From positions 1 to 41,292 of the IMG/VR virus record IMGVR_UViG_3300025117_000134: 41,292 nucleotides of DNA, one strand, 5' to 3'. This DNA comes from a virus. The notes under the pieces are model-generated. The model was given only the letters and a program-made list of their open reading frames with translations, was not told the DNA's origin and searched no databases. Within the stretch, counting starts at the first letter, position 1; each line of letters opens with the position of its first letter. Made by a program: the position numbers and the translations under genes. Of the stretch, positions 16,933 through 28,400 are shown piece by piece.

Positions 16933-17892
16933 ATGGAAAGATTAATAATAAATGGTAGGGGAGACGAAAAAATAATATCTCCTACACTTCCTTTCCCCAA
17001 TAAAAAACCCCACGAATACAACTACGACAAAACTACACAATTCCTACAAGAATCCAAACAACTAGCCAAAGAAGCAAAAGTTGGACAAAAAGAAGGAACA
17101 TGGATTCCACAATTAGAATATCCTACACTTCCGTTTGCCATTTGTTTAATGAGTGATATGCACTATGGAAGTATAAATGTAGACTATGACCTTTTAGATG
17201 AACACTTTAAAATTGTAGAAGATACACCTAACTTTTTTTTAGGAACTAATGGTGATCATGTAGATAACTTCAATGCAGTTCAGTTCCCAGATGGTATGTA
17301 TGAAAACCCTCTACCACCTAACTACCAAGCAAAGGTTATGTTTAAAAAACTATTAGAGTTAGACAGAAAAGACAAAGTTTCAGTTATTGCACATGGTAAT
17401 CACGACTTGTTTGGAAAAAAGGGAGGACAAGACTTCTTTGAAACATTTGCATCAGAGTTTAAATGTCCTATCTTTACAGAAGGTGGACACCTGGATATTC
17501 AAACCGCGGGATATACTTATAAAATGATACTTAATCATACCTACTGGGGCAAATCAAAAATTAATATAACTAACGCTCCTAAGAGACTAATGGAGTATGA
17601 AAGTGGTGAAAAAACAGCAGATATAGGTTGGTTAGGACATACTCATCAATCTTCGTTTGAACACTTTACTAAAGGTGGAAAAGACATCGTTGCAGTAGTA
17701 TCAGGAACTTATAAAGTAGAAGACCCCTGGGCTTCCAGAATAGGTCTAGGAATGAATCCAGGTCACGCTGGTATAACTCTAGTTCTTTGGCCTAACGAAA
17801 GAAAAATTGAAGTATTTAAAGATATAAAAACAGCACAAACCTTTTTGTTAGGTCAGATATTTAAAGAAGACTATGAAAGAAATAAAAAATGA
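16933..17892 (+). CDS. Calcineurin-like metallophosphoesterase
   Basis: 319 residues. The full set of metallophosphoesterase motifs is present: SDMHYG (Asp75/His77), NGDHVDN (Asp108), GNHD (155-158), NHTYWG (His202) and GHTH (235-238). These bind two metal ions and cleave phosphoesters. An N-terminal 60-residue extension is charged. Phage homologues are often annotated as phosphatases or nucleases with unknown substrate; a DNA-metabolism or nucleotide-signal-cleaving role is possible (inference). It overlaps the C39-like peptidase gene by 20 bases. Confidence 0.85.
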   Translation: MERLIINGRGDEKIISPTLPFPNKKPHEYNYDKTTQFLQESKQLAKEAKVGQKEGTWIPQLEYPTLPFAICLMSDMHYGSINVDYDLLDEHFKIVEDTPNFFLGTNGDHVDNFNAVQFPDGMYENPLPPNYQAKVMFKKLLELDRKDKVSVIAHGNHDLFGKKGGQDFFETFASEFKCPIFTEGGHLDIQTAGYTYKMILNHTYWGKSKINITNAPKRLMEYESGEKTADIGWLGHTHQSSFEHFTKGGKDIVAVVSGTYKVEDPWASRIGLGMNPGHAGITLVLWPNERKIEVFKDIKTAQTFLLGQIFKEDYERNKK

Positions 17893-18310
17893 GCAAGAGG
17901 GATACTGCGGTCCAGCCGTTATTCAGGACATACTTCATCAAGAAGGAATGTTTGCATCACAATCAGAAATAGCAGACTCATGCCGAACCTCCAACAAAGA
18001 AGGTACTTCACACATAGGACTCTTGATGGGTGCTAGAGAACTAGGACTTAAAGTTTTTAAAATTAAAGGACTCCCTATTGAAGAATACAAAGACCTACTT
18101 AAATTCCACCATGTAGTAGTTAACTGGATGGACGGACCAGATGATAGCGAGGATGGCCATTACAGCCTCCTTGAGAAGGTCGAAGATGGTAAAGTTTACC
18201 TTCACGACTATACTTTTACTATAGAAGAATTTAACAGTAAGTGGTACGACATAGACAGAGGACAACGTGTTAATAGGTGGGCTATGTTAGTACACAAAAC
18301 AAAATGTTAA
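17873..18310 (+). CDS. C39-like papain-fold cysteine peptidase
   Basis: 145 residues. Cys12 in EGYCGPAVIQDIL, His96 in DGHYSLL and Asp112 in LHDYTF form the C39/papain-fold Cys-His-Asp order. C39 domains normally cut double-glycine leaders of bacteriocins as part of ABC exporters. Here the domain stands alone, with no membrane part and no signal peptide. A role in processing a phage or host protein is plausible; no Gly-Gly leader substrate is obvious nearby. It overlaps the metallophosphoesterase gene upstream. Confidence 0.75.
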   Translation: MKEIKNEQEGYCGPAVIQDILHQEGMFASQSEIADSCRTSNKEGTSHIGLLMGARELGLKVFKIKGLPIEEYKDLLKFHHVVVNWMDGPDDSEDGHYSLLEKVEDGKVYLHDYTFTIEEFNSKWYDIDRGQRVNRWAMLVHKTKC

Positions 18311-19033: not shown

Positions 19034-19091
19034 GTTTAAAACAAATAAAGATAAAGCAGAATGGCTTAAGAAGCTATATGAAAAATTATGA
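18963..19091 (+). CDS. Overlapping 42-residue basic protein
   Basis: Out of frame with the preceding gene but linked to dcm by an ATGA overlap (stop 19089-19091). The product is MIIYIPRFLKELPP then a Lys/Trp-rich helix (YWKGKFKTNKDKAEWLKKL). The second half lies outside any other gene and looks protein-like. It could be a separate gene or the frameshifted C-terminus of 18827-19033. Confidence 0.45.
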   Translation: MIIYIPRFLKELPPKKHKEYWKGKFKTNKDKAEWLKKLYEKL

Positions 19092-20074
19092 AATATATAG
19101 ATTTATTTGCAGGAATAGGAGGATTTAGATATGGACTTGAAAAATGTAATGGTGTTGAATCAACAAACAAGAAGTCCAAATCGACCAAGCCTGAAGTACA
19201 GTTCCGGGGGGAGCGGTCCGCTTTGGAAGAAAAACGAAGCATTTTGTATTCCAACAAGCGGTGGTTCAGGGCAGTATATAGTAATGAATGGGACAAATAC
19301 GCCAGTTCAATCTACAAAAAACATTATGGAGAATGCGACACAAGGGACATCAGAACAGTTAAGTCTAGTGAAATCCCAGACTTTGACTTACTTGTTGGAG
19401 GATTTCCTTGCCAAGCATTTTCAATCGCTGGAAAACGCAAAGGATTTGACGACACCAGAGGGACTTTATTTTTTGAAATCGCTAGGATTCTTGCCGACAA
19501 AAGACCCAGATATTTTATACTTGAAAACGTCAAAGGTTTACTTAGTCATGACGAAGGCAAAACTTTCCAGACAATACTTGGGGTTCTCACCGACTTGGGG
19601 TATGAGTATCAATGGCAGGTTCTTAACAGCAAAAACTTCGGAGTCCCCCAGAACAGGGAAAGAATCTTCATTATCGGACATCTTAGAGGAGAACCCAGAC
19701 CCAAAGTATTTCCTATCAGAGAAAATAACAGCGTTTCTATTAAACGACAGGGGCAAATTTCCCCCACAATTACGCAGCGATACTACAAACAAGGACAGTC
19801 AGACCCTTATATCGTTACTGAAAAATCAAAGACAGGGGAACAGAGTTTACAGCAAGAAAGGAATCAGTCCAACAATACCGACATCAGTGGGGGGGAGACA
19901 CATTCCACAAGTATTAGAAGATTGACACCAACTGAATGTGAGAGATTACAAGGATTTCCTGATGGTTGGACAGAATACGGAACGGAAGGGAAAATATCAG
20001 ATACCCAACGCTACAAAACACTTGGAAATGCAGTTACCACTAATGTAGTATATGAAATAGCAAAACGATTATGA
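19088..20074 (+). CDS. dcm: DNA (cytosine-5) methyltransferase
   Basis: 328 residues with the ordered C5-methylase motifs: I DLFAGIGGF (5-13), IV GGFPCQAFS with catalytic Cys108, VI ENVK (146-149), VIII QNRER (188-192) and X GNAVT (313-317). It transfers methyl from S-adenosylmethionine to cytosine, probably protecting phage DNA from host restriction; no partner nuclease is seen. About 40 extra residues (about 20-62) separate motifs I and II. The gene is less AT-rich than its neighbours and fully contains another open frame (19131-19925), which may explain both features. Confidence 0.95.
   Translation: MKYIDLFAGIGGFRYGLEKCNGVESTNKKSKSTKPEVQFRGERSALEEKRSILYSNKRWFRAVYSNEWDKYASSIYKKHYGECDTRDIRTVKSSEIPDFDLLVGGFPCQAFSIAGKRKGFDDTRGTLFFEIARILADKRPRYFILENVKGLLSHDEGKTFQTILGVLTDLGYEYQWQVLNSKNFGVPQNRERIFIIGHLRGEPRPKVFPIRENNSVSIKRQGQISPTITQRYYKQGQSDPYIVTEKSKTGEQSLQQERNQSNNTDISGGETHSTSIRRLTPTECERLQGFPDGWTEYGTEGKISDTQRYKTLGNAVTTNVVYEIAKRL
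19117..19122 (+). promoter_or_regulatory. Internal Shine-Dalgarno for the overlapping frame
   Basis: AGGAGG, 8 nt before ATG 19131, inside the dcm codons for motif I (GIGGF). It gives the nested frame an ideal ribosome-binding site, although the codons for GIGG favour such a string anyway. Confidence 0.6.
19131..19925 (+). CDS. Overprinted gene inside dcm (+1 frame), 264 residues
   Basis: A 264-codon open frame, offset +1 from dcm and wholly nested in it, with AGGAGG 8 nt upstream. Its translation looks like a real protein. It has GGSGPLWKKNEAFC (about 26-39), WGMSINGRFLTAKTSESP (about 156-173), SLSDILE (180-186), PKYFLSEK (191-198) and RVYSKKGISPTIP (238-250). From memory, phage proteins with a SLSDILE…KYFLSEK signature occur next to or over C5-methylases, but I cannot search. 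Function unknown. Alternatively it is a chance frame imposed by dcm composition; its length and motif content argue against that. Confidence 0.6.
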   Translation: MDLKNVMVLNQQTRSPNRPSLKYSSGGSGPLWKKNEAFCIPTSGGSGQYIVMNGTNTPVQSTKNIMENATQGTSEQLSLVKSQTLTYLLEDFLAKHFQSLENAKDLTTPEGLYFLKSLGFLPTKDPDILYLKTSKVYLVMTKAKLSRQYLGFSPTWGMSINGRFLTAKTSESPRTGKESSLSDILEENPDPKYFLSEKITAFLLNDRGKFPPQLRSDTTNKDSQTLISLLKNQRQGNRVYSKKGISPTIPTSVGGRHIPQVLED

Positions 20075-27473: not shown

Positions 27474-28400
27474 ATGAAAATAATATCACAAGCACCATGC
27501 AGAATAAGTTTATTCGGAGGTGGTACTGATATTAATCCTTACGCTTCAAAATATGGTGGTGTTGTTTTTAGTATAGCTATAAATATAAGACAACATATAA
27601 TACTTGATACAGAGTCTTTTAAACATGATTGGCTAGAAGGTGATAGTTTAGATTTTATTAATAAATTTCTCAATCCTTTTAAGGTTGGAAATTGTGGAAT
27701 AAAACACACTTTTGATGGCCCTATTGAATCTGGCTTGGGTTCGTCTGCATCATTAGCTGTTGCTTTGATAGGTGCTGTAAATAAAGCAAAAGGAATAATA
27801 ATGAATAAAGATCAAATAGCAGAAATGGCCTGGAACATAGAAGTAAACGAACTTGGATTATTTGGTGGTAAACAAGATCAATACGCAGCCATTCACGGTG
27901 GTATCAATGTAATGGAATTTACTGATAAAGTTAAAGTTACACAACTATCGCCATCTTTTGTTGATCCCCTACTTCCATATCTAACCTTATTTTATACTGG
28001 AAAGAACCGTAGATCAGGTAAAATACAAGAAGCATTTAAAGAACTATCTAAACCACAACTAAACGCATTAGACGGTATAAAACAACTAACATATGATGGT
28101 GTAAATGCTATTGCTAATAAAGATGTGTATTCTGTGGGTAAACTATTAGACTATGCTTGGCAATTAAAGAAGAAATCTAATGCTGGTACTACAAATGAAA
28201 AGATAGACGCAATATATCAAACTGCATTGAAAAACGGTGCAATAGGTGGAAAGATACTCGGAGCAGGAGGTGGAGGACACATTCTGTTTGTTTGTCCACC
28301 AGATAAACAAGATCAACTAAAAGAAGCATTATCTAAATATGATTGTACTTGGACAGATTTTGGGATAGATTTTAATGGCTTAGAAACGAGGATATTATGA
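27474..28400 (+). CDS. hddA: D-glycero-D-manno-heptose 7-phosphate kinase (GHMP family)
   Basis: 308 residues. GHMP kinase motifs: SLFGGGTDI (12-20), the ATP loop ESGLGSSAS (85-93) and LGAGGGG (262-268). The GGGTD opening with FGGKQDQYA (130-138) is typical of HddA, which phosphorylates heptose 7-phosphate at C1 (α-anomer, GDP branch). Full length. A short GTCAAATG leader without SD precedes it, and a 30-residue peptide gene overlaps its end. Confidence 0.88.
   Translation: MKIISQAPCRISLFGGGTDINPYASKYGGVVFSIAINIRQHIILDTESFKHDWLEGDSLDFINKFLNPFKVGNCGIKHTFDGPIESGLGSSASLAVALIGAVNKAKGIIMNKDQIAEMAWNIEVNELGLFGGKQDQYAAIHGGINVMEFTDKVKVTQLSPSFVDPLLPYLTLFYTGKNRRSGKIQEAFKELSKPQLNALDGIKQLTYDGVNAIANKDVYSVGKLLDYAWQLKKKSNAGTTNEKIDAIYQTALKNGAIGGKILGAGGGGHILFVCPPDKQDQLKEALSKYDCTWTDFGIDFNGLETRIL

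Follow-up and report, generated by a model that had tools for sequence, protein, structure and literature searches.

Layout of the methyltransferase locus

The window, i.e., the whole 41,292-nucleotide stretch of viral DNA analysed here (IMG/VR record IMGVR_UViG_3300025117_000134), harbors a complete C5-cytosine DNA methyltransferase (MTase) gene on its plus strand and, nested in it, an open reading frame (ORF) in the +1 frame. The frame of the MTase is referred to as frame 0. The features of the locus are the following:

19088-20074, plus strand: frame-0 C5-cytosine DNA MTase, 328 amino acids, complete, motifs I-X present
19117-19122, plus strand: AGGAGG Shine-Dalgarno (SD), 8 nt upstream of the ATG at 19131 and within frame-0 motif I
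19131-19925, plus strand: +1 overlapping ORF, 264 codons, ATG to TGA, with homologues in the +1 frame of ~320 loci
19145-19282, plus strand: frame-0 insertion between motifs I and II, variable in relatives, pLDDT below 50
19149-19283, plus strand: +1 residues 7-51, a stretch resembling a target-recognition-domain (TRD) cassette inside the frame-0 motif I-II insertion, with matches to frame-0 TRDs
19668-19742, plus strand: +1 residues 180-204, conserved module SLSDILEENPDPKYFLSEKITAFLL, immediately 3' of frame-0 motif VIII
19745-19816, plus strand: frame-0 cassette-like stretch RQGQISPTITQRYYKQGQSDPYIV, with one frame-0 substitution between the window and L002
19833-19922, plus strand: +1 residues 235-264, second +1 TRD cassette NRVYSKKGISPTIPTSVGGRHIPQVLED, best E=1e-6 among frame-0 TRDs of other MTases
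19913-19963, plus strand: frame-0 motif IX, with the +1 stop TGA (19923-19925) inside its first codons

The frame-0 product belongs to the C5 MTases, possessing motifs I, IV (PCQ), VI (ENV), VIII (QxRxR), IX and X together with the M.HhaI fold. The motifs were located as FAGIGGF, GGFPCQ, ENV, QNRERIF, RRLTPTECERLQGFPD and GNAVTTN, and the product matches PF00145 (E=3.6e-85) and phrog_116 (E=4.5e-98). M.HhaI is the best fold match of its AlphaFold model (Foldseek, E=6e-21). The core of this model displays pLDDT values above 90, and the insertion (residues 25-55) and the TRD region (213-271) remain below 50; the low confidence of the TRD region possibly reflects a shallow alignment of 23 sequences. 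The insertion, located at frame-0 residues ~20-60, is 14-92 amino acids long in relatives. A run of seven G (19889-19895) occurs in the dual-coding region just before motif IX, and slippage there would shift both frame 0 and +1 with respect to this motif. The GC content of the locus is 40.6% as compared to 34.3% for the window (98th percentile), so that the suggestion of a less AT-rich locus, made in an earlier sequence-only reading, held.

The nearest named relative of the window by its MTase gene, Methanobacterium virus Drs3 (L081), possesses the same +1 ORF with the same SD-ATG. The window +1 product gives no significant match against Pfam, NCBIfam or PDB sequences, Pfam returning sub-threshold noise only. 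Its AlphaFold model has a mean pLDDT of 55.5, mostly below 65, with the module at 82-89; the protein is hence predicted to be mostly disordered, the module alone being modelled with confidence. Foldseek analysis of this model returned no match, as expected at such confidence. Low values outside the module are expected for a chain that depends on a partner, and the AlphaFold predictions of both products agree with the proposed recognition-type role of the +1 protein, without proving it.

Homologues of the +1 product were identified with tblastn in the MTase genes of many phages, and also in the +1 frame of many viral contigs. Between the window and its relatives, identity in +1 is often above that of the whole frame 0 (76% in +1 for L007, 71% for L001). 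The conserved core, directly 3' of motif VIII (QNRERIF), reads SLSDILEExxxxKYFLS and is extended in P1/Vibrio-like phages by ..KACxGILRRAEKRGKxLPxxL. The +1 module is found in dmt of E. coli phage P1 and in the MTase genes of Vibrio phage PS17B.1, Streptococcus phage MM1, Pseudanabaena phage Pan4, a Ruminococcus phage and Mycobacterium phage Porcelain, six phages spanning AT-rich and GC-rich genomes. In MM1, this ORF is annotated as a "C5 methyltransferase beta subunit" nested in an "alpha subunit"; in the other five phages it is unannotated. MM1 orf14 (DQ113772) is the same +1 ORF at the same place, starting 151 nt into the alpha gene, i.e., in +1, and its "beta subunit" label rests on annotation only. 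The family phrog_16143, annotated as "DNA methyltransferase", corresponds to the +1 overlapping ORF of MM1-like phages (MM1 orf14, E=5e-82), and the window +1 product belongs to it, residues 80-200 matching in an identical frame and position (E=4.2e-21).

The median length of the 312 closed +1 ORFs across all loci is 161 amino acids. At 160 of 161 loci, the module was located in +1 of an MTase; only L036 deviates, with MTase matches in two frames. No stand-alone +1 protein was found among these 161 loci, although rare stand-alone copies are not excluded because half of the sample was picked by module similarity. For one probe, a 46-residue consensus-like peptide, only the database matches were used. 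The statement in the sequence-only reading that SLSDILE-type phage proteins exist near C5 MTases held, but they are located inside the MTase genes, in +1, and not beside them. No report of the +1 overlap in phage C5 MTases was found in the open-access literature searched. A separate break, distinct from the +1 module, is seen in the MTase of phage Porcelain (L087, 1511-2711): its annotation lists a pair of overlapping "DNA methylase" genes, with motifs I-VIII in frame 0 and motifs IX-X in +1 after a frame-0 stop.

Homology of the +1 module to recognition-domain segments

In cellular MTases, a segment similar to the module is found in frame 0, ~20-60 residues after motif VIII, for example RLLDVLENEVDEKYYLSEEKTSKLI in L329 and KVGDILEDNVDEKYTISDKIWIGHQRR in L341. 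The frame-0 segment of the viral L311 corresponds in alignment to M.HhaI residues ~190-208, where the recognition domain begins. Two sets of phage loci were gathered by the frame-0 N-terminal half only, because selecting on the +1 frame had to be avoided: set A comprises P1/Vibrio-like genes and set B MM1-like genes. Profile comparison with hhalign relates the set B +1 module to the in-frame segment with P=9e-9. Against the in-frame profile, 63 of 65 genes have a +1 module that outscores every one of its own synonymous shuffles; in the case of the window, 2 shuffles out of 2000 reach the real score. By sequence, the +1 module is homologous to the in-frame TRD segment.

A module HMM was built from in-frame controls (10 cellular genes plus L311 and L312) and used with a cut-off of 10 bits. 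It detects the module in frame 0 of 16 of the 18 controls, which are mostly cellular, and of none of 193 phage-type genes; conversely, the module is detected in +1 in 171 of the 193 phage-type genes and in 0 of 18 controls. The in-frame and +1 layouts are mutually exclusive by this HMM over these genes. The same cut-off retrieves the +1 module in 54 of 74 genes in set A and 70 of 71 in set B, and a looser pattern retrieves it in 69/69 and 68/70 distinct genes, respectively. An absence of homologues beyond close copies could have refuted the sequence-only claim of a conserved second gene; homologues of the +1 product are instead present throughout phage C5 MTases, and its C-terminal module has the cellular in-frame counterpart described above. 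A scan of viral contigs with a cellular MTase gave no matches. To note, L311 and L312 are viral genes with a frame-0 module. The upstream part of their +1 frame remains free of stops, although +1 stops appear right after motif VIII. This open upstream frame looks like a relic, possibly left after a reversion or a TRD swap.

The 5' part of the +1 ORF resembles recognition domains as well. In the window clade, the +1 peptides of 11 of the 17 distinct motif I-II insertions match frame-0 TRDs of other MTases, as compared to 1/17 for frame 0 and 0/17 for frame +2. The best match is that of L020 (72% over 32 amino acids, E=1.3e-14); that of the window is modest (E=4.3e-4), and the E-values given for the insertion and for the second cassette refer to a small private database. 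Comparison of relatives shows stronger conservation of the insertion in +1 (window/L018, E=4e-8 versus 0.007 in frame 0), with identities of 85% versus 62% for L004/L021 and 82% versus 64% for L001/L008, and its substitutions fall mostly at the +1 third position. The view that the odd 40-residue insertion is kept for the second protein held, the insertion being variable and predicted to be disordered in frame 0 and better conserved in +1. The +1 frame of the window, L002 and L004 runs past the module into the second cassette (NRVYSKKGISPTIPTSVGGRHIPQVL in the window), for which the window and L002 differ by 8 synonymous and 6 nonsynonymous changes in +1, as compared to 1 and 13 in frame 0. Cassette-like stretches are present in both frames. 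Searches of phage records and viral contigs with short cassettes returned little.

Selection and predicted translation start in the +1 frame

Stop codons were counted against synonymous shuffles that keep the codon usage of each gene but ignore codon-pair bias, a bias that the +2, downstream and cellular controls address. The only stop in the window +1 frame is its own terminator, as compared to an average of 8.7 over 1000 synonymous recodings (P=0.001); frame +2 has 24 stops versus 24.9 expected. Over the 80 codons upstream of motif VIII, 3 +1 stops are observed versus 135 expected in set A, and 3 versus 270 in set B. Such depletion is absent from frame +2 (218 versus 246 expected in A, 571 versus 541 in B), and +1 stops 3' of the module are not depleted either (143 versus 130 in A, 304 versus 230 in B). 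The window clade has no +1 stop in the 60 codons before motif VIII (81 expected) and none in the module (28 expected). Sixteen cellular MTases devoid of the +1 module contain 100 +1 stops versus 93.6 expected, and 0/16 are stop-free.

A first substitution profile was dropped, its loci having been partly selected on the +1 module, and the analysis was redone on sets A and B. Scaled to the upstream part of the same genes, frame-0 synonymous change after motif VIII falls to 0.08-0.26 of expectation over codons 0-39 in set A and to 0.21-0.42 over codons 0-19 in set B; in the ten codons before motif VIII it is not reduced in set B (1.42). In most of the module the fastest site is frame-0 position 1, i.e., the +1 wobble position. 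Excess openness of the second frame and purifying selection in it, both features of overlapping genes, are fulfilled, and selection on the +1 frame is strongly supported and very probable.

These results also bear on several points of the sequence-only reading. Its claim that +1 is open for 264 codons from 19131 to 19925, starting with an ATG 8 nt after AGGAGG, is borne out by the sequence and the synonymous recodings, and its impression of a genuine protein, based on strings such as SLSDILE and KYFLSEK, is supported by stop depletion, synonymous constraint and module homology. Stops in close relatives or normal synonymous variation in frame 0 would have refuted it; +1 stops are nearly absent, and frame-0 synonymous variation is strongly reduced exactly over the +1 module. 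One P1-like gene, L206, keeps the module but has a +1 stop 10 codons upstream of it, leaving only a TTG, which makes it an informative exception with regard to how ribosomes enter +1.

A first alternative is that there is no second protein, the open +1 frame arising passively from the conservation of frame 0, from codon bias or from a signal acting at the nucleotide level. In its favor, motifs II-VIII of frame 0 are highly conserved, and similarity in +1 is therefore partly passive; moreover, the window by itself provides only P=0.001. Against it, shuffles that preserve frame 0 still yield 135-270 stops where 3 are observed, cellular MTases with the same motifs have the expected number of +1 stops, substitutions track the +1 codon structure, and shuffles fit an independent in-frame protein segment far less well than the +1 module. 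This explanation is considered very improbable.

The translation start was searched as an SD core of at least 5 bases plus ATG or GTG among codons 1-30 of the +1 ORF, again versus synonymous shuffles. The window clade has such a start in 24 of its 41 genes (6.8 expected) and set B in 50 of 68 (13.2 expected), with no enrichment in set A (2 of 67, 1.1 expected) and little or none elsewhere in the +1 ORF. The AGGAGG-ATG element of the window is common to L001, L003, L007, L011, L012, L018, L021 and Drs3; genes without the insertion often have another SD-ATG just 3' of the last upstream +1 stop. A start of its own, a further feature of an overlapping gene, is thus fulfilled in two of the three clades, namely the window clade and the MM1-like genes. 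Independent +1 initiation, although inferred as far as translation itself is concerned, is well supported for the window and MM1-like phages but lacks such support in P1-like ones. Taken as a selected and translated gene, the +1 frame is very likely real, translation being inferred in the absence of expression data.

A second alternative is programmed frameshifting, in which ribosomes reading frame 0 would slip to +1 where motif VIII ends, and possibly return to frame 0 ahead of motif IX, to yield a fused enzyme with the recognition domain of +1. Several observations favor it: the +1 module begins where motif VIII ends, and its cellular counterpart sits shortly after the same point; the constraint in MM1-like genes begins abruptly at the end of motif VIII; the window +1 frame extends to the first codons of motif IX; and P1-like genes lack internal SD enrichment. 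Conversely, frameshifting needs neither the 80-160 stop-free +1 codons 5' of motif VIII nor initiation signals where the +1 ORF begins, and a complete enzyme would require two opposite shifts. There is also no sign of a conserved slippery site, since synonymous change is unreduced in codons -10 to -1 of MM1-like genes (1.42, above). Frameshifting is therefore held to be unlikely.

A putative TRD-like subunit acting in trans

The favored reading, considered more likely than not, is that of two overlapping genes whose +1 product is a TRD-like subunit acting in trans; its translation, its association with the enzyme and its effect on activity or specificity are all inferred. Frame 0 would encode the catalytic C5 MTase. 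The +1 frame would be translated from its own internal SD/ATG in motif I into a 264-residue protein made of recognition-domain pieces: from N- to C-terminus, a cassette-like part, a linker under loose constraint that overlaps motifs II-VIII, then the DILE-KYFLS module followed by another cassette reaching motif IX. This protein would bind the frame-0 enzyme as a second (beta or TRD) subunit and complete or change its recognition domain. The second-subunit role is proposed because cellular C5 MTases have the DILE module in frame 0, while the viral enzymes lack it there. Frame 0 may nonetheless be active alone, because all motifs and some cassettes are in frame 0. The lack of expression data for +1 leaves the subunit role inferred, and the absence of SD enrichment in P1/Vibrio-like genes and the stop in L206 weigh against the proposal. 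The sequence-only reading had envisioned a conserved overprinted partner of Dcm, perhaps a modulator: the partner is supported and the modulator is left open, a TRD-like subunit providing a better fit.

C5 MTases made of two polypeptides, as well as ones working as split fragments, are known (PMC3404938). M.EcoHK31I (YGGCCR) is a two-polypeptide enzyme; the paper that first described it, cited in PMC3404938, states in its title that in vitro methylation requires both chains. The coding sequence of its beta polypeptide is likewise nested in that of alpha, in a different reading frame. Its small subunit carries motif IX and its large one the TRD (PMC3404938), whereas at the phage locus frame 0 keeps motif IX and +1 holds TRD pieces. 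In M.AquI (CYCGRG), as at the phage locus, the recognition region is split over two polypeptides (PMC3404938); however, the small M.AquI subunit comprises the distal variable region and motifs IX-X, whereas the phage +1 partner, encoded within the first gene, has neither motif IX nor X. The M.AquI feature of a recognition region lying partly in a second polypeptide is thus found by sequence, and the division of catalytic motifs between polypeptides, seen in M.AquI and M.EcoHK31I, is not, all motifs being in frame 0. For this reason, the phage locus is not classed as a two-polypeptide C5 MTase but only as working like one. Inactive fragments of M.HhaI, M.BspRI, M.BsuRI and M.SssI can assemble to an active enzyme (PMC3404938), but these complementing pieces are artificial and do not stem from overlapping genes. 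Multispecific phage C5 MTases of the SPR and phi3T type have exchangeable TRD cassettes between motifs VIII and IX. All their cassettes are in one frame and one protein, whereas some of those of the phage locus are in a second frame and protein.

The C5 MTase gene of phage SpSL1 has been linked to RCGRC methylation of phage DNA (PMC6755750). This gene also has an unannotated +1 ORF, with an ATG at codon 50 behind GGGAG, and its methylation consequently does not decide whether frame 0 alone is active. A third alternative is that +1 encodes a separate regulator, i.e., a TRD-like decoy or inhibitor binding to the MTase, to its DNA sites or to a host restriction enzyme, and not a working subunit. 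The +1 product is mostly disordered with one short conserved module, as for a binding peptide, and all catalytic motifs are kept in frame 0, both in favor of a regulator; the RCGRC methylation of SpSL1 with a +1 ORF present fits a regulator or a subunit. Against it, the module is exactly the segment absent from frame 0 in 193 of 193 genes, which points to recognition, and the +1 cassettes are of the recognition type. A regulator is accordingly judged improbable.

Beyond the preferred TRD-like subunit at this locus, a bolder reading is that phage C5 MTase genes commonly encode a +1 trans-acting specificity subunit, with cassettes interleaved between the two frames to give two alternative or composite target specificities; the balance of evidence tips slightly against it for now. 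What is new here is the breadth of the +1 overlap, largely overlooked; two-polypeptide C5 MTases and the MM1 beta-subunit annotation were already known. C5 MTases and phage P1 are among the best-studied systems, yet this conserved nested gene is unannotated in most records examined. If +1 is needed for methylation or alters it, orphan phage MTases that were cloned as a single frame may have been tested in its absence or, unknowingly, in its presence, and the specificities assigned to phage MTases would need rechecking. Among the tailed viruses of bacteria and archaea, it would also stand out as an overprinted gene of unusual breadth, age and testability, the likely origin being a piece of the enzyme's own recognition domain shifted to another frame.

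Other genes on the plus strand of the window were noted. The ORF just 5' of the MTase (17873-18310) encodes a peptidase C39-like protein (PF03412, E=6.5e-8) without the remaining parts of a bacteriocin exporter in that ORF. A 524-residue Cpn60/TCP-1 chaperonin (83-1657; PF00118, E=3e-59) is unusual cargo for a tailed-virus contig, and a GHMP kinase (27474-28400; PF00288 and PF08544) represents a metabolic gene in a viral contig.
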